From an uncultured Mycoplasmatota bacterium (GTDB lineage Bacteria; Bacillota_I; Bacilli_A; RF39; UBA660): a DNA stretch of 51,224 nucleotides. Shown piece after piece: positions 10,926 through 20,339 of this stretch. The number at the start of each line of letters is the position of its first letter. Position 1 is the first letter of the stretch. The stretch spans positions 1 to 51,224 of the forward strand of contig CAMMOI010000004.1 of NCBI GenBank assembly GCA_946498375.1, in the 5' to 3' direction. The notes below the pieces were generated by a model. The model searched no databases. It was not told the origin of the DNA and saw nothing but the letters and a program-made list of their open reading frames with translations. Both the position numbers and the translations under genes were made by a program.

Positions 10926-12353
10926 TTATTTTTCATCAAGTAATTCTTTTAATATTTTATTAGTAATAACCGGATTAGCTTTTCCTTTAGTTTCTTTCAT
11001 AACTTGACCCACAAAAAATTTAAATAAGTTATCTTTTCCATTTTTATATTCCTCTACTTGTTGAGAACAATTATTTAGAATCTTTTGAATAACATCTTTT
11101 AAATAACCCTCATCACTTACTTGAGTAATATTACTACTAATAAAATCTTTAGGTTCTCTTTTTTGCTCAATAGCTTTAATAAATATTTCTTTTGCTTGTT
11201 TTGATGATATTGTTTTATCTTCTAATTTATCAATTATTTGTTTTAATAAATCAGGAGTAATATAAAATTCACTTATAGAAATATCTTCCTTATTTAAAAT
11301 ACTTAATATATTAACAGTTAACCAATTGGCAGCTATTTTAGGATCCATAATTAAAGCACACTTATCAAAATAATCTGCAAAATCTTTGTCTTTAATAATT
11401 ATAGAAGCATCGGCTTTATTTAATTTATAATCATTTACATACCTTTCATATCGATAAAAAGGCAATTCAGGAATTTCTTCTCTTATTTTTTCTAAATACT
11501 CTGGTTCAATTTTAAATTTAGGAATATTTGGTTCAACAAAATACTTATAATCTATAGCTTCAACTTTTTTACGCATTCTTATAGTACTTTGAGTTGTATC
11601 ATCATAACGTCTTGTCTCTTGAATTATTTCATCACTTTTTCCTGCTTCTAAAGCTTCTGTTTGTCTTTTAATTTCATATTCTATTGCTTTTGCTACATTG
11701 GAAAAAGAATTAATATTTTTAATTTCAACTTTAGTTCCCAAAGTATTTATACCTTCTTTTTGTAAAGATATATTAACATCACATCTAATTTGACCCATTT
11801 TAGTATCTGCCTCAGATACATCACAATATTTAAGAGTATTTCTTAAAGTTTCTAAATATGCAACTACCTCCTGGGCAGAATGAAGACAAGGTTCAGTTAC
11901 AATTTCTACTAAAGGAACTCCACAACGATTATAATCAATCAAAGAAAAATCCTCATAATGATCCATTGATGCCGTATCTTCTTCTAAATGAATATCATGA
12001 ATTAAAACTTTTTTCTTTTTATCATCAACTGCAATTTCTAAATAGCCATTAATTCCCACAGGATCTGTCTGTTGGGTAATTTGATAACCTTTAGGTAAAT
12101 CAGGATAGTAATAATTTTTACGATCAAATATTAATTCTTTAGGTTGCTGAGAATTAAGAGCCAAACTCATTTTAAAAGCTTTTCTTAAAGCTTCCTTATT
12201 TAAAACTGGTAAAGTACCGGGAAATGCTAAATCAAGTAAATCTAAATTTGAATTTGGAATCTCATTATAATGATTTATTCCTCTTGAAAAAACTTTTGAT
12301 TTTGTATTTAATTCACAATGTAATTCTAAGCCGATTGTTGGTATATACTTCAC
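10926..12353 (-). CDS. gatB: Aspartyl/glutamyl-tRNA amidotransferase subunit B
   Basis: GatB activates Glu-tRNA(Gln) or Asp-tRNA(Asn) by phosphorylation and receives ammonia from GatA, forming Gln-tRNA or Asn-tRNA. The protein has 475 residues, which is full length. The cradle domain opens with IGLELHCEL and contains the conserved DYNRCGVPLVEIVTEP stretch. A helical YqeY-like tail ends in KGKANPVITNKILKELL. It starts with GTG at 12351-12353 and overlaps the gatA stop by four bases (GTGA), which indicates translational coupling. Confidence 0.97.
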   Translation of the reverse strand: MKYIPTIGLELHCELNTKSKVFSRGINHYNEIPNSNLDLLDLAFPGTLPVLNKEALRKAFKMSLALNSQQPKELIFDRKNYYYPDLPKGYQITQQTDPVGINGYLEIAVDDKKKKVLIHDIHLEEDTASMDHYEDFSLIDYNRCGVPLVEIVTEPCLHSAQEVVAYLETLRNTLKYCDVSEADTKMGQIRCDVNISLQKEGINTLGTKVEIKNINSFSNVAKAIEYEIKRQTEALEAGKSDEIIQETRRYDDTTQSTIRMRKKVEAIDYKYFVEPNIPKFKIEPEYLEKIREEIPELPFYRYERYVNDYKLNKADASIIIKDKDFADYFDKCALIMDPKIAANWLTVNILSILNKEDISISEFYITPDLLKQIIDKLEDKTISSKQAKEIFIKAIEQKREPKDFISSNITQVSDEGYLKDVIQKILNNCSQQVEEYKNGKDNLFKFFVGQVMKETKGKANPVITNKILKELLDEK

Positions 12354-13807
12354 TTTGTATTCTCCTTTGCTATTTGATTTTTATAATTCATAGTACTTTC
12401 AATAGCATAAGCAATATTTAAAACATTTGCATCATCTAAGACTTTACCAGTAATATTAATACCTATTGGTAAATCATTAACAAAGCCATTTGGTATAGTT
12501 ATACTTGGAAATCCACCAAAATTTCCAATAGCCATATGATTTTCTAAAATATCATTAGTACTAATTTGTTCTTCATTATCTTGATTTAATAAAGGTGCTG
12601 GACCTGCACTACAAGGTAGAATTAAGCCATCATATTTTTCAAATAAAGAATTTACTTTATTAACAATTAATCTTCTAATTCGTTGTGCATTTTTAAAATA
12701 TTTTTCCTGGTTTTCTTGTTGTAATACATAAGAGCCAATTACAAATCTTCTTTTAATTAATGGGGAAAAACCTTTAGTTCGATGATCTTTCATAATTTGA
12801 TTAACACTTTTTCCCGTGCCACGAGGGCCAAAAAGAATACCAGTTAAATTAGAATCATTACTAGTGGCCTCAGCACAAGAAATACATAAATAAGATGGGA
12901 AAATAGCCGATAACAATGTTTTATCAATTGATACCTCTTCTACTTTGATACCTAAAGCTTTAGCCTTATCTAAAGTCTTTTGAAATAAAGTTAAACTTTC
13001 CTTTAACTCTTTTGATGGATTTTCATATTCATCTATATTACAAATTTCTTTAATATAACATAATTTTTTCCCTGCCACTTTTTTATCTAAAGCCTGATAT
13101 AAGGATTGATCTAAGTTAATACTTGTCATATCTTTTTCATCTTGACCTTTAATATTATCAATTACTATTGCAGCATCTTTAACGTTACGAGTTAGTACTC
13201 CTACATGATCTAGCGAAGAGGCAAAAGCAAAAAGGCCAAAACGTGAAACTAAACCATAAGTTGGTTTATAACCAACAATCCCACAATAAGCAGCAGGTTT
13301 TCTAATAGAATCTCCTGTATCACTTCCTAAGGCATAAGGAACAATCCCAGCAGCTACTGCTGCAGCAGAACCTGAGGAAGATCCTCCACACATTCTTTTT
13401 CTATCCCATGGATTATAAACTATTCCAGTATGAGCAGTTGTACCAGTAGAACCCATACCTAATTCATCCATAACTGTTTTCCCAATATTTACAGCACCAG
13501 CTTCTTTTAATTTTTCTACAGCTGTAGCATCAAAAATAGGTATATAATCTTTTAGAGTATTACTAGATGCAGTTGAGAGCATTCCTTTGGTCGATAAATT
13601 ATCTTTAATTGCACAAGGAATACCAGCTAGCATATTATCTATTGGTCCCTCATAGGTTGCATTTTCATCAATTGTTACAAAAAAATTATAATCTTTTTGA
13701 TACTTTTTGGCCTCAGAAATTGCTTCTTGTATTAATTCATTTGCTTTAATTTGACCACTTTTTAACTCTTCATGTAAAGTTTCGATGCTTTTTGTTTTAT
13801 AAGACAT
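12350..13807 (-). CDS. gatA: Glutamyl-tRNA(Gln) amidotransferase subunit A
   Basis: This amidase-signature enzyme releases ammonia from glutamine for the GatB reaction. It has 485 residues. The Ser-cisSer-Lys triad is K68 (AIKDN), S143 in the GGSSSGS run and nucleophile S167, matching the spacing of the S. aureus enzyme. The signature around the nucleophile reads SDTGDSIRKP where most bacteria have SDTGGSIRQP, a variant I recall from Mollicutes. The stop is TGA, overlapping gatB. Unlike normal gatCAB operons, four small ORFs separate it from gatC. Confidence 0.97.
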   Translation of the reverse strand: MSYKTKSIETLHEELKSGQIKANELIQEAISEAKKYQKDYNFFVTIDENATYEGPIDNMLAGIPCAIKDNLSTKGMLSTASSNTLKDYIPIFDATAVEKLKEAGAVNIGKTVMDELGMGSTGTTAHTGIVYNPWDRKRMCGGSSSGSAAAVAAGIVPYALGSDTGDSIRKPAAYCGIVGYKPTYGLVSRFGLFAFASSLDHVGVLTRNVKDAAIVIDNIKGQDEKDMTSINLDQSLYQALDKKVAGKKLCYIKEICNIDEYENPSKELKESLTLFQKTLDKAKALGIKVEEVSIDKTLLSAIFPSYLCISCAEATSNDSNLTGILFGPRGTGKSVNQIMKDHRTKGFSPLIKRRFVIGSYVLQQENQEKYFKNAQRIRRLIVNKVNSLFEKYDGLILPCSAGPAPLLNQDNEEQISTNDILENHMAIGNFGGFPSITIPNGFVNDLPIGINITGKVLDDANVLNIAYAIESTMNYKNQIAKENTK

Positions 13808-13811
13808 TTTT

Positions 13812-14057
13812 TTACCTCTTTCTAACTAATTTACTAGACTTTTGGTATTCTTCTATTAAATTTATAAATTCTTGCCAGGCATTATCTAATTTAATTTTCC
13901 ATTCTTTATATAATTCTTTTTCTTTTTTAGATTTAAAAATATCATCAAGCATTAGACCATGATCTTCTAAATATTTTAATTTCATAAAACGCGTATTTAT
14001 CTCTAAATCTAAGATATAATCTTTTTTATTTTCAATTAAAGTTTCTATTTGATTCAT
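13812..14057 (-). CDS. Small helical protein inside the gatCAB operon (fourth insert ORF)
   Basis: The protein has 81 residues, is charged and predicted helical (KEWKIKLDNAWQEFINLIEEY), and is otherwise unrecognised. The frame opens further upstream, but ATG 14055-14057 has an AAAGGAA site and leaves a 26-base overlap with the previous small ORF, typical of coupled genes. It ends four bases before gatA. Its position between gatC and gatA is where no gene normally lies. I infer no function. It shares the length, charge and aromatic content of its three neighbours. Confidence 0.6.
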   Translation of the reverse strand: MNQIETLIENKKDYILDLEINTRFMKLKYLEDHGLMLDDIFKSKKEKELYKEWKIKLDNAWQEFINLIEEYQKSSKLVRKR

Positions 14058-14337
14058 AAAATATTCCTTTAGTATAAGTATAAATTTCGTTTTGATCTGA
14101 TAAAGAAAGAAAATAATTAAATTCTTCAATATTAGCATTAGCCGTAGATAACTCTTGCATATATTCTAATTTAAAACGAAGATATTTTAATTCTAAGATT
14201 GGATTATTAATAATTATACTTGGAGTTTGGGCAGTATAAAGTTCTTCATAAAATAAGTATATAAACATCTTTTTTAATTGTAATTGTTTAATATATTCTA
14301 TATTTAGCAATATTGCCTGATAATATTCACTATTCAT
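14032..14337 (-). CDS. Small protein inside the gatCAB operon (third insert ORF)
   Basis: The protein has 101 residues, is rich in Tyr, Leu and Glu, and has no recognisable domain. Its first half contains repeated hydrophobic-aromatic stretches (KKMFIYLFYEELYTAQ). Its stop is TGA and it overlaps the next small ORF by 26 bases. The ATG at 14335-14337 lies four bases after the preceding ORF with an AGAGG site inside that gene's end. The tight packing supports translation as part of the gat operon. Confidence 0.55.
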   Translation of the reverse strand: MNSEYYQAILLNIEYIKQLQLKKMFIYLFYEELYTAQTPSIIINNPILELKYLRFKLEYMQELSTANANIEEFNYFLSLSDQNEIYTYTKGIFYESNRNFN

Positions 14338-14341
14338 AATT

Positions 14342-14572
14342 CTACCTCTTTTTAAGTTTCTCTTCGATCGTCTTTATTTCTAATATTAAATTTTTTTCTT
14401 TATATTCTATTGCATTTAACTTAGATAATTTATGTAAATAGATGCCACAATTCTGTTTATAAAAATTTTTCATGTTAATCTGCTCTTGATACCAGTGATA
14501 CTCTAAACTTTGATAAAATGCATTTAACATTTGTTTTTTTAAATCTAAAAGTAACAATAATTCAGTATCCAT
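14342..14572 (-). CDS. Small helical protein inside the gatCAB operon (second insert ORF)
   Basis: The protein has 76 residues. It has a helical N-terminus, then SLEYHWYQEQINMKNFY, then a Lys/Glu-rich helix to the end. The E-Y-x-W-[YF] stretch resembles the motif in two other small ORFs of this operon (GIEDYQWY in the 119-residue ORF and GIEQYNWF in the 109-residue ORF), which suggests a diverged family. Its ATG lies one base beyond the preceding gene's stop. No function can be assigned. Confidence 0.55.
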   Translation of the reverse strand: MDTELLLLLDLKKQMLNAFYQSLEYHWYQEQINMKNFYKQNCGIYLHKLSKLNAIEYKEKNLILEIKTIEEKLKKR

Positions 14573-14573
14573 A

Positions 14574-14903
14574 TTACTTTAAGATCCTCTTTTGATAATT
14601 ACGTATTTGTAATTCATTTGTTAGATCATCTAAATTTTTTTTAGCTGATATATAATTTAACTTCATTAATTTATTTCTAATTTGACAATATTTATTAAAT
14701 TCTGTGGCATCTTCATATGGTTCTTGACCATTTGTATTAAATTCGTTTTCTTTTATTAAAAACCAATTATACTGTTCAATACCTATTGCATTTATTATCC
14801 CCTCAAAGTATTCTTCAAATAATTCTTTTAGTGCTTCCAATTCTAATGTGTCTTTTTTTTCATAATTAAATGAATCTTTAATCATGCTCGAATATTTATC
14901 CAT
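14574..14903 (-). CDS. Small protein inside the gatCAB operon (first insert ORF)
   Basis: The protein has 109 residues. ATG 14901-14903 is preferred over the TTG two codons upstream because GGGAGG lies seven bases before it. The centre reads IINAIGIEQYNWFL, which matches IINLVGIEDYQWYT of the ORF at 15263 in spacing and most residues. I therefore call the two distant paralogues. The remainder is charged and helical. It lies about 50 bases after gatC, the longest gap in the cluster, so a local promoter cannot be excluded. Confidence 0.6.
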   Translation of the reverse strand: MDKYSSMIKDSFNYEKKDTLELEALKELFEEYFEGIINAIGIEQYNWFLIKENEFNTNGQEPYEDATEFNKYCQIRNKLMKLNYISAKKNLDDLTNELQIRNYQKRILK

Positions 14904-14955
14904 TTTCAAACCTCCCCAAATAATTTATATTCATATTATAACACTAATAAATATT

Positions 14956-15249
14956 TTAACCCACTGTTTTTGGGACTTTAACTTCTCTACCATCTAGTTG
15001 ATCTGTATTTTTCAAAGCATCTTTAAAAGTTATACTAGGACATGGTTCATCATCTCGAAGTTTAGCAGTATATAAATCAATTGGATGAGTCATCGGCTCT
15101 ACTTTTTCAATATTTTTTATCTGATTAATTAAATTCATATTCTCCTCAATTAAAGAAAACTCATCTAATAAAGTCTGATTTTCCAAAGGCGTTAAACCAA
15201 TAAGTAATTTATCAGCTAATTCATCTATTGTCTTTTTATTAAATTCCAT
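14956..15249 (-). CDS. gatC: Aspartyl/glutamyl-tRNA amidotransferase subunit C
   Basis: This small subunit wraps around GatA and holds it to GatB. It has 97 residues, normal for GatC. The family pattern is clear: an N-terminal helix pair, then VEPMTHPIDL, then LRDDEPCPSITFKDALKN, then a C-terminal KVPKTVG. ATG 15247-15249 is chosen because AGGTG lies five bases upstream; the earlier in-frame start at 15273 has no such site. It is cut off from gatA by about 1.1 kb holding four small ORFs. Confidence 0.92.
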   Translation of the reverse strand: MEFNKKTIDELADKLLIGLTPLENQTLLDEFSLIEENMNLINQIKNIEKVEPMTHPIDLYTAKLRDDEPCPSITFKDALKNTDQLDGREVKVPKTVG

Positions 15250-15262
15250 ATCTTCACCTAAT

Positions 15263-15622
15263 TTACATAACATATTTTTTTATCGTTTGATAATTATTTA
15301 AAATCTGATTAATTTCTTTTAACTTTTCTTCAACTAAAGCAAAATCATTATTATCTAAAATTATTTTTATTTTTTGTAGTTTATATAAATTACCTAAATT
15401 ACGTTCTATATTTTGCTGCATAAATTCTAATCTATATAAATGATTAGTATACCATTGATAATCTTCAATCCCCACTAAATTTATAATATCTTCATATCGT
15501 TTTTGGTAAACAAGTTGTAAAAACTCTAAAGTTCTTTGATCTAAATTTTTAATATCTTGAGAAGATAAACTATCATAATATCTTGAATAATTTTGATAAT
15601 ATTTTTTTGGCATTTCATTCAT
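15263..15622 (-). CDS. Small helical protein between asnS and gatC
   Basis: The protein has 119 residues, is rich in Tyr, Gln and Asn, and is mostly helical by composition, with a long heptad-like C-terminal half. Residues around IINLVGIEDYQWYTNHL are shared in pattern with the ORF at 14574 (IINAIGIEQYNWFLIKE). It starts 19 bases after asnS with GGAGG ten bases before the ATG and ends 13 bases before gatC. It is clearly co-transcribed with both. No known domain is visible. Confidence 0.6.
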   Translation of the reverse strand: MNEMPKKYYQNYSRYYDSLSSQDIKNLDQRTLEFLQLVYQKRYEDIINLVGIEDYQWYTNHLYRLEFMQQNIERNLGNLYKLQKIKIILDNNDFALVEEKLKEINQILNNYQTIKKYVM

Positions 15623-15640
15623 AATTACATTACCTCCAAA

Positions 15641-17005
15641 TTAAAAGTCACAATTATTTGGGGTTCTTGGAAAAGGTATTACATCTCTGATATTTTCTAC
15701 ACCAGTTAAATACATGATTAAGCGTTCAAAGCCCATTCCAAATCCTGAATGATAACATCCCCCAAATTTTCGTAAATTTAAATACCAATTAACAGTATCT
15801 AAATCAACATTCATCGCACGAGCTCGTGAAATTAATTTATCATAGTCTTCCTCTCTTTGTGAACCTCCCATTAATTCCCCAGCTTGTGGAACTTCCAAAT
15901 CAACTGCTGCTACAGTTTTGCCATCTTTATTTTCTTTCATATACCAAGCTTTAATATCTTTAGGCCAATTATAAATAAATACCGGCCCATCAAATACTTC
16001 TGTAATGTATTTTTCATGTTCTTTGGCAATATCTTCATCATATGATGGCTCAAACTCCCATTTTTTATCTGCTTTAAGTAAAATATCAATAGCTTCATGA
16101 TGAGTAATTTTCTTAAACTTAGAATTTACTAATTTAGTTAATTTATTCTTTAAGCCTTTTTCTACAAACTTATCTAAAAATGTAATCTCATCATCACATT
16201 TATCTAAACAATATTTTACGACAAACTTTAACATTTCTTCTTCAACATTCATTAAATCATCTAAATCCATAAAAGCCATTTCTGGTTCAATCATCCAAAA
16301 TTCATTAGCATGAGTTTTGGTGTTGGAATTTTCAGTTCTAAATGTTGGGCCGAAAGTATAGATTCTTTTAAATGCCATGGCAAACGCCTCACCATGTAAT
16401 TGACCAGTTCCTGTAATAAATGTCTGTTTTTTAAATAAATCCTTACTCATATCTACCTTATTATCAACCTTTGGTAAATTGTTCAAATCTAATGTTGTTA
16501 CTTTAAACATTTGATTTTCACCCTCACAATCTGCTGTTGTTAAAAGTGGCGTATGAACATATAAATAATTATGAGATTGAAAATATTCATGTATAGCCAT
16601 AGCAGCTATGCTACGAACTCTAAATACCGCTTGAAATAAATTAGTTCGTGGACGAAGATACGCTATACTACGCAAGAATTCAAAACTATGAGCTTTAGGT
16701 TGCAGTGGATAATCACTAGGACAGTCCCCTTCTAAAGTAATTTTACGTGCTTTAAGTTCATAATCTTGCTTACCTAAAGACTCTACTAAACTTCCTTCTA
16801 CTTTTATAGCACATCCAACTAAAAGCTTAGAAACATCTTCAAAGTTTTCTAAAGTATTATCATAAACTATTTGAAGATGATTAAAACTAGTACCATCACT
16901 AAAATCGATAAAACCAAAGCTTTCATGCTTACGATGATTTCTTATCCAGCCTTCAACTGTAATATCTTGGCCAGTTAATTTTTTAGAAATTTGTTTAACA
17001 TCCAT
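15641..17005 (-). CDS. asnS: Asparaginyl-tRNA synthetase
   Basis: This class II synthetase charges tRNA(Asn) directly. It has 454 residues. An N-terminal OB anticodon-binding domain (VEGWIRNHRKHESFGFIDF) is followed by the class II core, with motif 2 around FRTENSNTKTHANEFWMIEPE and motif 3 GFGMGFERLIMYLTG. The C-terminus VIPFPRTPNNCDF is typical for AsnRS. It lies 19 bases downstream of aspS. Its presence beside a possibly non-discriminating AspRS and GatCAB suggests two potential routes to Asn-tRNA, or that GatCAB here serves mainly Gln-tRNA. Confidence 0.97.
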   Translation of the reverse strand: MDVKQISKKLTGQDITVEGWIRNHRKHESFGFIDFSDGTSFNHLQIVYDNTLENFEDVSKLLVGCAIKVEGSLVESLGKQDYELKARKITLEGDCPSDYPLQPKAHSFEFLRSIAYLRPRTNLFQAVFRVRSIAAMAIHEYFQSHNYLYVHTPLLTTADCEGENQMFKVTTLDLNNLPKVDNKVDMSKDLFKKQTFITGTGQLHGEAFAMAFKRIYTFGPTFRTENSNTKTHANEFWMIEPEMAFMDLDDLMNVEEEMLKFVVKYCLDKCDDEITFLDKFVEKGLKNKLTKLVNSKFKKITHHEAIDILLKADKKWEFEPSYDEDIAKEHEKYITEVFDGPVFIYNWPKDIKAWYMKENKDGKTVAAVDLEVPQAGELMGGSQREEDYDKLISRARAMNVDLDTVNWYLNLRKFGGCYHSGFGMGFERLIMYLTGVENIRDVIPFPRTPNNCDF

Positions 17006-17024: not shown

Positions 17025-18335
17025 TTAAGGTTTTAACCTGGTTGGTCCTCTATAGATATAAGTTGCTTCTCTAATATTATCTATATTTAACATTTGCATT
17101 AATACTCGAGCAATTCCTATGGCAAATCCACCGTGAGGAGGACATCCATATTTAAAGAAATCTAAGTAAAATTCTAAGGATTCTGGATCAATATCCTTTT
17201 TTATTATTTGCTCTTTTAAAATATCAATACGGTGTTCCCTTTGCGATCCCGTAGTTATTTCTACTCCCCTATAAAGTAAGTCATAACTATTAGTAAGACT
17301 ATCTGAATCTAGATTATGATAAAAAGGGCGTGCCGAAAAAGGAAATTTAGTTACAAAAACAAAGTCACTATTATATTTTTTCTTAACATATTTACATAAT
17401 AGCATTTCCTCTTTTCGTTCAAAGTCATCTTTTCTTTCTCCTACAAAATGAAACTCATCCTGTAAAATCTTCTTAGCTTCTTTAAATGTAATTCTAGGAA
17501 ATTTAACATCTAAATTAGATAATTCAGTTTTAAATAACTTTTTAATATCATCTTTATATTTTTCATAAACTTTATTAAATGCATATTTAAGCCAAGCTTC
17601 TTCCATATCCATAATATCTTCAAAAGAATCGATATAAGACATTTCAATATCAGCCATATTTATTTCAGTAGCATGATAGGAAGTATGCGAATTCTCAGCT
17701 CTAAATGCTGGACCTATTTCAAATACTTTACCAAAATTAGCTGCCATAGCCATTTGTTTATAAAACTGAGGAGATTGGGATAAACAAGCTTCTTGGCCAA
17801 AATAATCCAATTTAAAAGTTTCGGCTCCGCTTTCAGCAACTGAGGCAGAAATTTTTGGCGAATGAATTTCAATAAAGTTATTCTTTATACAATATTCGCG
17901 TAAAGAATGTTCAAATAAAGTTTCAATTTTAAATAATAAATTATTATCTTCACGTCTTAAATCTAAAAAACGATAATCTAATCTTGTTTCTCTTAAAGCG
18001 GCATCACGAGTTTTTATATTTATTGGCAATTGATCTAAAGACATACTCGTAATTTCAATACTTTTGGGAATAACTTCTTTTTGACCAAGCTTAACTGATG
18101 GTGCATTATAACAAGTCCCTATTATTTTTACGGTACTTTCTAATGTAATACTTTCTACAATCTTAACTAAAGACTCATTATTTTCTTTTTCAATTGTTAC
18201 TTGAACCTTACTACTATCATCTTTAATTACCATAAATATAACATAAGGCAAATTACGAATATTTTCAACAAACCCTTGTATTAACACTTCTTGATCATAA
18301 TATTTTTCTAAATCTTTTATTTTTACTGTTTTCAT
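17025..18335 (-). CDS. aspS: Aspartyl-tRNA synthetase, archaeal/eukaryotic type (AspS2)
   Basis: The protein has 436 residues, far shorter than the roughly 590 of bacterial AspRS, and lacks the bacterial GAD insertion. The class II core follows the archaeal pattern: RFLDLR, QSPQFYKQ, FRAENSHTSYHATE and GFAIGIARVLMQML. Enzymes of this type are often non-discriminating, charging both tRNA(Asp) and tRNA(Asn). In the anticodon domain the residues read QGFVEN and YNAP; archaeal discriminating enzymes usually have Trp and Lys near these points, so relaxed specificity is possible. This is inference and needs alignment. Its ATG overlaps the preceding stop by one base. Confidence 0.93.
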   Translation of the reverse strand: MKTVKIKDLEKYYDQEVLIQGFVENIRNLPYVIFMVIKDDSSKVQVTIEKENNESLVKIVESITLESTVKIIGTCYNAPSVKLGQKEVIPKSIEITSMSLDQLPINIKTRDAALRETRLDYRFLDLRREDNNLLFKIETLFEHSLREYCIKNNFIEIHSPKISASVAESGAETFKLDYFGQEACLSQSPQFYKQMAMAANFGKVFEIGPAFRAENSHTSYHATEINMADIEMSYIDSFEDIMDMEEAWLKYAFNKVYEKYKDDIKKLFKTELSNLDVKFPRITFKEAKKILQDEFHFVGERKDDFERKEEMLLCKYVKKKYNSDFVFVTKFPFSARPFYHNLDSDSLTNSYDLLYRGVEITTGSQREHRIDILKEQIIKKDIDPESLEFYLDFFKYGCPPHGGFAIGIARVLMQMLNIDNIREATYIYRGPTRLKP

Positions 18336-18796
18336 TATTTTCTCTCCAAAACTCTTTTAATTTGATCAATATAATCAACATCAACTTTATATCTTATATT
18401 TTGATCTAAAGCATTCAAAATAGCTTTTAATTGATCTAAATTTGTATAAGTCATCATTTCTTTTTTTACTTCATTATATTGATATTTTAACTCATGATTA
18501 ATATTTGTTAAAGTAATAATGTAAGTTAATGTATTATTTTGTTTAGAACAAACATCAACATAGTTATAAAAATCCCAAAATACACTTTGTGGTAAGATTT
18601 GCGTAATCTTATCATTGCGAGTTAAAACATCTAAGGCATCAACTAATATTCCTCTAAAAGATGTAAACAATACTTTTTGATCATAAAGAATTTCAAACCC
18701 ACTGGCATTCAATTCTTGCATTTTATTATATGAATTAGAATTTAATTGTTCAGCATCTAATACATTATTATAAAAATCTAAATATCTAATAACCAT
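18335..18796 (-). CDS. Hypothetical protein between hisS and aspS
   Basis: The protein has 153 residues and is predominantly helical. It is acidic in the middle, with a basic C-terminus (YIDQIKRVLERK). I see no motif I can name. It starts 16 bases after hisS and ends in TAATG, sharing one base with the aspS start, so it belongs to the synthetase operon. It does not carry the GIExYxW pattern of the small ORFs further downstream. Confidence 0.6.
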   Translation of the reverse strand: MVIRYLDFYNNVLDAEQLNSNSYNKMQELNASGFEILYDQKVLFTSFRGILVDALDVLTRNDKITQILPQSVFWDFYNYVDVCSKQNNTLTYIITLTNINHELKYQYNEVKKEMMTYTNLDQLKAILNALDQNIRYKVDVDYIDQIKRVLERK

Positions 18797-18812: not shown

Positions 18813-20078
18813 TTACATATGCATGTCTAAATAATCAACTAAATCATTTATTTTTACTTTTTCCTCTTCTTTAAGTTTATTATCTTTAAGAGTTACTTCA
18901 TAATTTTTAATATCATTACTATTTACAATAATCGTATATTTACTTTTAAAACGATCGGCACTTTTAAATTGGCTTTTTAAACTTCTATTCAAATAATCAG
19001 TTTCACATATAAAGCCATTTAAACGTAATTCTTGAGACAAATACAAAGCCGTTTCTTTTTCTTCCTCATTTACATAACCAATATATACATCAATAGAATC
19101 ATTTATAGGAATTTTTACCTCTTCTTCATCTAAGGCTAACATTATTCTTTCTAAGCCCATAGCAAATCCCATTCCACAGGTTGATGGACCTCCAAGCATT
19201 TTTACTAGATTATTATACCTTCCTCCTGCAGCTAAAACATTTTGAGAGCCAAAATTTTTACTAAGCATTTCAATTTCAAATACTGTATGACTATAATAAT
19301 CTAAACCTCTAACAATACTTGGATTAACTACATATTCTATATCTAATAAATTTAAATATTCTTGTAATTTAGAAAATCTTTTAGCACTATCTGAATTTAA
19401 ATATTGATCTATTTTAGGAGCATTTTTAAACCATGTTTTTGAGGCATCTACTTTACAATCTAATATTCTTAACGGATTTTTCTTTAACCTATTTTGACAA
19501 TCTTCACACATATCATTAGTATAATTAGAAAAATATTCAACTAAAGCTTTTTTATAATCTGATCGAGACTCATCATCTCCTAAAGTATTAATATTTACTC
19601 TAATATTTGTAAGTCCTAATAACTTAAAAATGTTATATGCTAAACTTATTACCTCAGCATCAATAAAGGGATCATCACATCCTAATACTTCCACCCCAAA
19701 TTGATTAAACTCACGTAATCTACCAGCTTGAGGTCTTTCGTAGCGATACATCATTTCGTTATAGTAAAGTTTAACTGGTTGAATATCTCTACCATATAAT
19801 TTATTTTCAATATAGCTTCTAACTACTCCTGCAGTTCCCTCGGGTCTTAGCGTAATATCTCTATCTCCACGATCTTTAAAATCATATGTTTCTTTAGTAA
19901 CAATATCTGAGGTATTTCCTACACTACGATGAAAAACCTCACTAGATTCAAATACAGGAGTTCTAATAAATTCATAATTATATTTTTCACAAATTGCAGT
20001 TAAAACATCATTTATATACTGCATTTTTTTAGCTTCTTTTCCTAATAAATCATATGTACCTTTTGGTTTGGTAATCAT
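18813..20078 (-). CDS. hisS: Histidyl-tRNA synthetase
   Basis: This class II synthetase charges tRNA(His). It has 421 residues. Motif 1 lies around the EFIRTPVFESSEVF region, motif 2 is in RYERPQAGRLREFNQF, the histidine-binding HisA motif is RGLDYYSHTVFE, and motif 3 is GMGFAMGLERIMLAL. The C-terminal anticodon-binding domain begins near residue 325. It is the first gene of a long operon and lies directly behind a T-box leader. In Bacillus hisS is followed by a bacterial-type aspS; here aspS is of archaeal type. Confidence 0.97.
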   Translation of the reverse strand: MITKPKGTYDLLGKEAKKMQYINDVLTAICEKYNYEFIRTPVFESSEVFHRSVGNTSDIVTKETYDFKDRGDRDITLRPEGTAGVVRSYIENKLYGRDIQPVKLYYNEMMYRYERPQAGRLREFNQFGVEVLGCDDPFIDAEVISLAYNIFKLLGLTNIRVNINTLGDDESRSDYKKALVEYFSNYTNDMCEDCQNRLKKNPLRILDCKVDASKTWFKNAPKIDQYLNSDSAKRFSKLQEYLNLLDIEYVVNPSIVRGLDYYSHTVFEIEMLSKNFGSQNVLAAGGRYNNLVKMLGGPSTCGMGFAMGLERIMLALDEEEVKIPINDSIDVYIGYVNEEEKETALYLSQELRLNGFICETDYLNRSLKSQFKSADRFKSKYTIIVNSNDIKNYEVTLKDNKLKEEEKVKINDLVDYLDMHM

Positions 20079-20096
20079 TATATCATCCTTCCAATT

Positions 20097-20304
20097 AAAA
20101 AGTACCTATCTATATAAGGACGACTTAACTGCCGCGGTGCCACCTTATTTTACCTAGGTACTCTTTATTTTTTATCGCATATCTGCGTTTCTAAATTCTG
20201 AAAGTTGTCTTTCTTTTATTTTAAGTTTAGGTATCTCTCAGCTCTAATACCCTCTCTTGGAAAACTTATTTTAATAAAATACTTAGTCTTTCTTTAGAAA
20301 ATAT
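20097..20304 (-). promoter_or_regulatory. T-box riboswitch leader of the hisS-aspS-asnS-gatCAB operon
   Basis: This tRNA-sensing leader controls transcription read-through. On the minus strand the T-box motif AAGGTGGCACCGCGG occupies 20132-20146. A terminator (GTACCTA..AATAAGG pairing with CCTTATAT..TAGGTAC, then five T) spans 20097-20163. A small stem CGCA-GATA-TGCG (stem III) lies near 20175-20187. Stem I closes by CTAAA/TTTAG and GAAAG/CTTTC and carries an AGAGA bulge and a GCTG loop. The likely specifier side reads GAA-A-GAC-AAC before CTTTC: GAC (Asp) at 20207-20209 fits best, with AAC (Asn) adjacent at 20204-20206. No His codon (CAC/CAT) is seen in that loop. Confidence 0.9.
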
Positions 20305-20310
20305 ATTAAT

Positions 20311-20339
20311 ATTTTAACTTATTTTTTTAAAATTCGCAA
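20311..20339 (-). promoter_or_regulatory. Sigma-A type promoter of the T-box operon
   Basis: On the minus strand TTGCGA (20334-20339) and TAAAAT (20311-20316) are exactly 17 bases apart, placing the start near 20304, just before stem I of the T-box. Confidence 0.65.

Follow-up and report, generated by a model that had tools for sequence, protein, structure and literature searches.

A T-box leader with an aspartate specifier codon, predicted to sense tRNA-Asp, ahead of a hisS-aspS-asnS-gatCAB operon

The leader found upstream of hisS in an uncultured Mycoplasmatota bacterium is very probably a transcription-terminating T-box with a single specifier codon, GAC, that senses uncharged tRNA-Asp and turns on a hisS-aspS-asnS-gatCAB operon; the AAC triplet that directly follows GAC would consist of a linker and the closing base of a helix. 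The leader lies in a stretch of 51,224 nucleotides (contig CAMMOI010000004.1 of assembly GCA_946498375.1), which is referred to here as the window. An earlier note on this DNA had drawn attention to the two adjoining triplets, whose letters it gave correctly, and had considered a T-box with two codons, one for tRNA-Asp and perhaps one for tRNA-Asn. The positions of all features are collected in Table 1.

Table 1. Features of the leader and of the operon downstream, with the basis for each assignment.
Feature	Position	Strand	Basis or remark
Promoter-like TTGCGA-17-TAAAAT	20311..20339	minus	directly upstream of leader; consensus match only
T-box leader (RF00230, whole model)	20306-20113	minus	Rfam covariance match ahead of hisS
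Lower Stem I helix, 5' strand GAAAG	20292-20288	minus	pairs with CUUUC
AGUA of Stem I loop E / S-turn	20280..20283	minus	leader sequence and Rfam alignment
GAA opposite AGUA, anchor 4 nt before specifier	20211..20213	minus	alignment and calibrator leaders
Specifier codon GAC (Asp)	20209-20207	minus	Rfam alignment, calibrators, 55 hisS leaders
AAC, two-base linker AA plus first base C of lower helix	20204..20206	minus	proposed second codon, not supported
Lower Stem I helix, 3' strand CUUUC	20204-20200	minus	pairs with GAAAG
AAAGAGUACCUA, serving as purine string, mini Stem III 5' strand and terminator 5' arm	20166-20155	minus	
Antiterminator AAGG ... CCUU	20116..20146	minus	Rfam alignment and arm analysis
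T-box bulge UGGC	20142-20139	minus	complementary to tRNA 3' end GCCA (G73)
Terminator 3' arm UAGGUACU with U-run	20108-20097	minus	arm pairing analysis
hisS	18813..20078	minus	TIGR00442, 474 bits
153-aa ORF	18335..18796	minus	without NCBIfam match
aspS, non-discriminating (aspartate--tRNA(Asn) ligase)	17025..18335	minus	NF003483 476.6 bits, TIGR00458 373.4 bits, both over cut-off
asnS	15641..17005	minus	TIGR00457, 545 bits
gatC-like	14956..15273	minus	TIGR00135, 39.3 bits, below cut-off 47.1
gatA-like	12350..13807	minus	TIGR00132, 457.6 bits, just below cut-off 481.1
gatB	10926..12353	minus	TIGR00133, 540.6 bits

Identification of the leader and its operon

The presence of a T-box ahead of hisS is indicated by the Rfam covariance model RF00230, which aligned over its full length (positions 1-219) at 81.2 bits (E 2.9e-18) in a relaxed search of 351 bases. 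Because this score is below the Rfam gathering score of 93, which is a search threshold and not a structural requirement, a default Rfam scan of the window at the gathering score listed no T-box. The assembly (969 kb, 68% complete) holds nine T-box matches, the window leader among them, and several score under 81.2 bits. For the promoter-like sequence upstream, five such sites were found where shuffles gave an expectation of 1.9.

Family profiles bore out an operon encoding AspRS, AsnRS and GatCAB, with genes in the order hisS, 153-aa ORF, aspS, asnS, 119-aa ORF, gatC-like, gatA-like and gatB. The gatC-like and gatA-like ORFs fall below their own cut-offs, yet no better family was found for either. 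Small ORFs occupy the stretches 18335-18796, 15263-15622 and 14032-14909 between the synthetase and gat genes, and the three tested against NCBIfam (18335-18796, 15263-15622 and 14574-14909) gave no match. The gene order hisS-aspS-asnS-gatC-gatA is also present in genomes G168 and G225.

A bacterial AspRS above cut-off was identified in seven of the nine genomes of the genus and was absent from G000 and G001, the only two in which a T-box on the hisS operon was seen. This distribution fits an operon AspRS that needs control by aspartate; a second AspRS may be encoded elsewhere, the assembly being incomplete. The other genomes of the genus have an aspS with its own T-box, and the order aspS-gatC-gatA was observed in the four leaders followed downstream. 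In G005-G008 (leaders L046-L049) full hisS is replaced, ahead of the operon aspS, by an ORF of some 261 aa that resembles HisRS in the segments matching residues 15-39, 122-165 and 301-421, and another HisRS is encoded elsewhere.

Placement of the specifier codon

The minus strand between 20213 and 20200 reads GAA-A-GAC-AA-CUUUC. In a covariance alignment, the check that the earlier note had proposed, GAC falls on the specifier of the model: the leader GAA lies on the model GAA, GAC takes the specifier positions one base on, the next A is the conserved purine, and the AC that follows is an insertion before the helix. Same-genus leaders used as calibrators, whose genes were named from a reading of protein starts, carry the cognate codon at GAA-N-codon-R (tyrS, GAA-U-UAC-A; pheS, GAA-A-UUC-A; valS, GAA-G-GUA-G), and the window GAC stands in this same place, followed by A. 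Before the helix, asnS leaders of the family read AAC-A and aspS leaders GAC-A. The frame is not rigid, with a few leaders of the genus (one tyrS type, serS) shifted by a base. Altogether, these comparisons support GAC as the specifier of the window leader, as judged from sequence, and a tRNA-Asp with anticodon GUC is encoded in the assembly.

In the assembly, tRNA-Asp ends in G-CCA (G73), which matches the UGGC of the T-box bulge, and tRNA-His ends in C-CCA (C73). A tRNA-Asn was not found in the 68%-complete assembly, and in eight genus relatives it ends in G-CCA (G73). UGGC thus fits both tRNA-Asp and tRNA-Asn, and the bulge cannot tell Asp from Asn. Taken with the GAC specifier and the AspRS, AsnRS and GatCAB genes downstream, the match of UGGC to G73 argues for uncharged tRNA-Asp as the predicted signal, in agreement with what the earlier note had expected.

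Since the window specifier is separated from the helix by two bases instead of the usual one, the first-choice frame of TBDB would read ACA (Thr), a reading that matches neither the operon genes nor the comparative data. It is extremely unlikely that the leader senses tRNA-His on behalf of hisS or is read in a shifted frame, as ACA (Thr) or CAA (Gln). The position of hisS as first gene would suit the former, and the latter draws on an ACA whose distance to the bulge end is two to four bases and on a tRNA-Gln that also has G73; however, the operon holds no Thr or Gln synthetase, and all 55 hisS leaders carry an Asp or Asn codon at the aligned position. tRNA-His itself was rejected as a candidate, in line with the earlier note, because the specifier loop contains no CAC and C73 is unable to pair with UGGC.

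Single-sequence folding was set aside as a guide to the specifier. It prefers a local hairpin within the 3' strand, GAAAG-ACAA-CUUUC, to the full lower Stem I by 0.4 kcal/mol (-13.9 vs -13.5), and the program used has no model of loop E or of the kink-turn. In the lower helix, the inner pair had a fold probability of 0.99 in L097, 0.96 in L151 and 0.13-0.45 in L157, L184 and L185.

The AAC triplet adjoining the specifier

T-boxes with UGGC were collected from 291 genomes of the family, and the leaders of 130 matches were read. Amongst these, 55 leaders situated upstream of hisS or in its vicinity were annotated; automatic identification of Stem I failed for about half of this set, and those leaders were annotated manually, with a script as check. 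Specifier and helix are separated by a linker that is A in 25 leaders, AA in 16 and AG, AC, AU, GG, GC or AACA in the rest. The lower helix opens with a G-C pair in 40 leaders and with an A-U pair in 15, counts favoured by the choice of the partner strand for pairing. In the 40 leaders with AGUA, the helix strands form 225 pairs with their own partners, against a mean of 122 and a maximum of 150 with swapped partners (0/2000 as high).

These observations bear on the triplet directly. The earlier note had placed AAC in the loop just before the helix, which holds for its two A residues; the C at 20204 already belongs to the helix, where it begins the 3' strand. Additionally, AAC falls outside all three frames considered by TBDB (PMC7778990). 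The proposal that AAC acts as a second specifier for tRNA-Asn was not supported, its third base being paired in Stem I and close relatives that keep GAC having AGC, ACC or AAU in its place.

The bases after GAC were followed across the family. Only three of the 29 annotated GAC leaders (the window, L136 and L184) have AAC right after GAC, and L185, which of all GAC leaders is placed closest to L184 on the tree, has ACC. A second search, by pattern in 385 genomes, yielded 41 hisS-type leaders; it required GACA and hence tests only the bases that come after GAC. The triplet in these is AGC in 16, AAC in 14, ACC in 4, ACU in 4 and others in 3. It varies even within a single genus, with AAC 7, ACC 4, AGC 2 and AAU 1 in genus g136, and AGC 14, AAC 3 and AGU 1 in genus g98. 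The frequency of AAC after GAC follows from the composition of the loop edge, an A or G linker base and then the C of the closing pair, and the triplet is unconserved. On these sequence comparisons, the adjacency of GAC and AAC reflects only how the loop edge is ordinarily composed, and AAC is most likely the edge of an RNA stem and not a second sensor. The earlier note had stated that related leaders in which only GAC is conserved would speak against two codons. The AAC that follows GAC does vary, whereas GAC itself is not fixed and alternates with AAC at the specifier position across the family.

A two-codon T-box, in which GAC binds tRNA-Asp, the adjacent AAC binds tRNA-Asn and the operon answers to either, is accordingly given little credence and appears very unlikely. 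Such a design would be compatible with the G73 of both tRNAs, with operon genes that serve both amino acids, with the recurrence of GACAAC in about a third of the GACA-type leaders and with a clostridial precedent (Saad et al. 2013, as described in PMC4052509). Against it stand a pair at the C of AAC in 55/55 leaders, always G-C or A-U, the variation of the middle and last bases amongst GAC leaders of one genus, the ACC of L185 and the lack of a purine following the second codon.

Asp/Asn switching amongst hisS leaders

The specifier position of the 55 annotated leaders holds GAC in 29 and GAU in one (30 Asp), and AAC in 25 (Asn). Mapping of the specifier onto the HisRS tree gives a minimum of 9 or 10 changes, according to how L136 is read, and in the 10-change count seven are forced by well-supported branches; shuffles required more changes (mean 18). 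Specifier identity differs with the second gene, AspRS being found with 20 GAC and 11 AAC leaders and AsnRS with 2 and 9 (Fisher p 0.013, kinship ignored).

On this tree the window has L097 as its sister (99% support). The L097 leader reads GAA-U-AAC-AA-CUUCU and thus has AAC where the window has GAC. The clade that contains both mostly has an AAC specifier. GACAAC is best read as an ancestral AACAAC in which the first A became G, the direction of change being our inference, and this one-base change explains the two-codon look; the AAC after GAC would be a leftover from an ancestor with an AAC specifier. The same relatives raise the alternative that the window leader senses only tRNA-Asn, through its AAC, as its sister does through an AAC one codon earlier. 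Although AAC is the specifier in L097 and most of the clade, and AsnRS and GatCAB are encoded in the operon, the AAC of the relatives occupies the place of the window GAC and not a place three bases on, and a codon that abuts the helix is unlike every calibrator, which makes sensing of tRNA-Asn alone highly improbable.

Two other hisS leaders are better Asp/Asn two-codon candidates than that of the window, as far as their sequences indicate. L136 (G168:C17) reads UUGACAACA before CUUC; its AAC keeps the customary one-base distance to the helix, its GAC also lies entirely within the loop, and its specifier assignment stays ambiguous. A leader in G429 (G429:C2:12803-12883), of which the matched stretch alone was read, has GACAACAACUCUUU. 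These two, in which both codons lie inside the loop, are the best candidates.

Reduced forms of Stem I were also observed. In the hisS leader L238, all that is left of Stem I is the hairpin AGAAA-ACUAACAAC-UUUCU, whose loop carries AAC. Eight aspS leaders (L129, L130, L138, L139, L143, L144, L146 and L149) have a very short Stem I in place of the long one, a hairpin whose loop contains GUGACA and so carries GAC.

Terminator and antiterminator

The terminator 3' arm UAGGUACUUUUU pairs with AAAGAGUACCUA, which lies upstream of the antiterminator. The predicted fold encloses the antiterminator within the terminator and has Stem III as the element exclusive with the terminator. The upstream arm is favoured over any inside arm by more than 2 kcal/mol in 44/52 hisS leaders, and the inside arm is used by asnB leaders (8/8), asnS leaders (6/6) and most gatC leaders (4/6). 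With most of the U-run left out, terminator arms bind their own partners better than swapped ones (mean -9.1 vs -6.2, 0/500).

In the proposed mechanism, the GUC anticodon of tRNA-Asp would pair with GAC and the GCCA end of the uncharged tRNA with UGGC. This pairing would hold Stem III and the antiterminator together, keeping AAAGAGUACCUA from UAGGUACUUUUU, and transcription would continue; with charged tRNA-Asp, the terminator would form.

Comparison with known T-box systems

As in the standard transcriptional T-box (PMC7583486), the window leader has the AGUA/GAA of Stem I, a specifier followed by a purine, a UGGN bulge, an antiterminator and a terminator. In the standard form the 3' strands of the antiterminator helices A1 and A2 serve as the 5' strand of the terminator, whereas in the window leader that role falls to the purine string and the Stem III strand, which lie upstream of the antiterminator. 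Amongst open-access papers, we found no description of such an upstream-arm layout. It is possible, but somewhat doubtful, that the hisS and aspS T-boxes of the family represent a distinct layout, with a terminator arm taken from a Stem III strand, a nested antiterminator and a tRNA that protects Stem III, and with Asp/Asn identity flipped by single-base changes.

Known hisS-aspS T-boxes, as summarized in PMC5313534, have GAC in the specifier loop and have been proposed to respond mainly to tRNA-Asp, not tRNA-His (Gutierrez-Preciado 2009). By its sequence, the window leader is of this kind, preceding a hisS-aspS operon with GAC as specifier. It differs from the examples cited there in that they read GACAC, in which GAC overlaps the His codon CAC, whereas the window reads GACAAC, without CAC; in addition, its operon includes asnS, gatCAB and a non-discriminating AspRS.

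The clostridial precedent is the transamidation-operon T-box of Clostridium acetobutylicum, in which, according to the account in PMC4052509, two overlapping codon positions of the specifier loop bind tRNA-Asn and tRNA-Glu. The window T-box is likewise found on a transamidation operon and has two codon-like triplets near each other. Unlike the codons in that account, the window triplets are adjacent, and the second overlaps the helix and is unconserved, so that the two are not both within the loop. A closer look-alike to the system described there is the aspS-gatC-gatA leader of genus relatives (L074-L077, L079, L083 and L085, from G002-G008), with the loop GAAAGAACA before CCUC or CCUU and a UGGU bulge. 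In this loop GAA (Glu) overlaps AAC (Asn), also on a transamidation operon. The gatC leaders of the family keep the AAC of the overlapping pair, and their GAA is often UAA.

Implications

The tRNA most likely to be watched by this operon is tRNA-Asp, and the resemblance of a loop-edge triplet to a codon is no evidence of a second sensor. Within the family, evolution has produced a series of Asp and Asn sensors on a shared scaffold, and the HisRS tree shows nine or more switches between the two. With the leaders of the window, L097, G168 and G429, this series makes the change of T-box specificity, and a possible intermediate state that senses two tRNAs, directly testable. If the distinct layout is true, tRNA binding would protect Stem III and not compete for the antiterminator strands.
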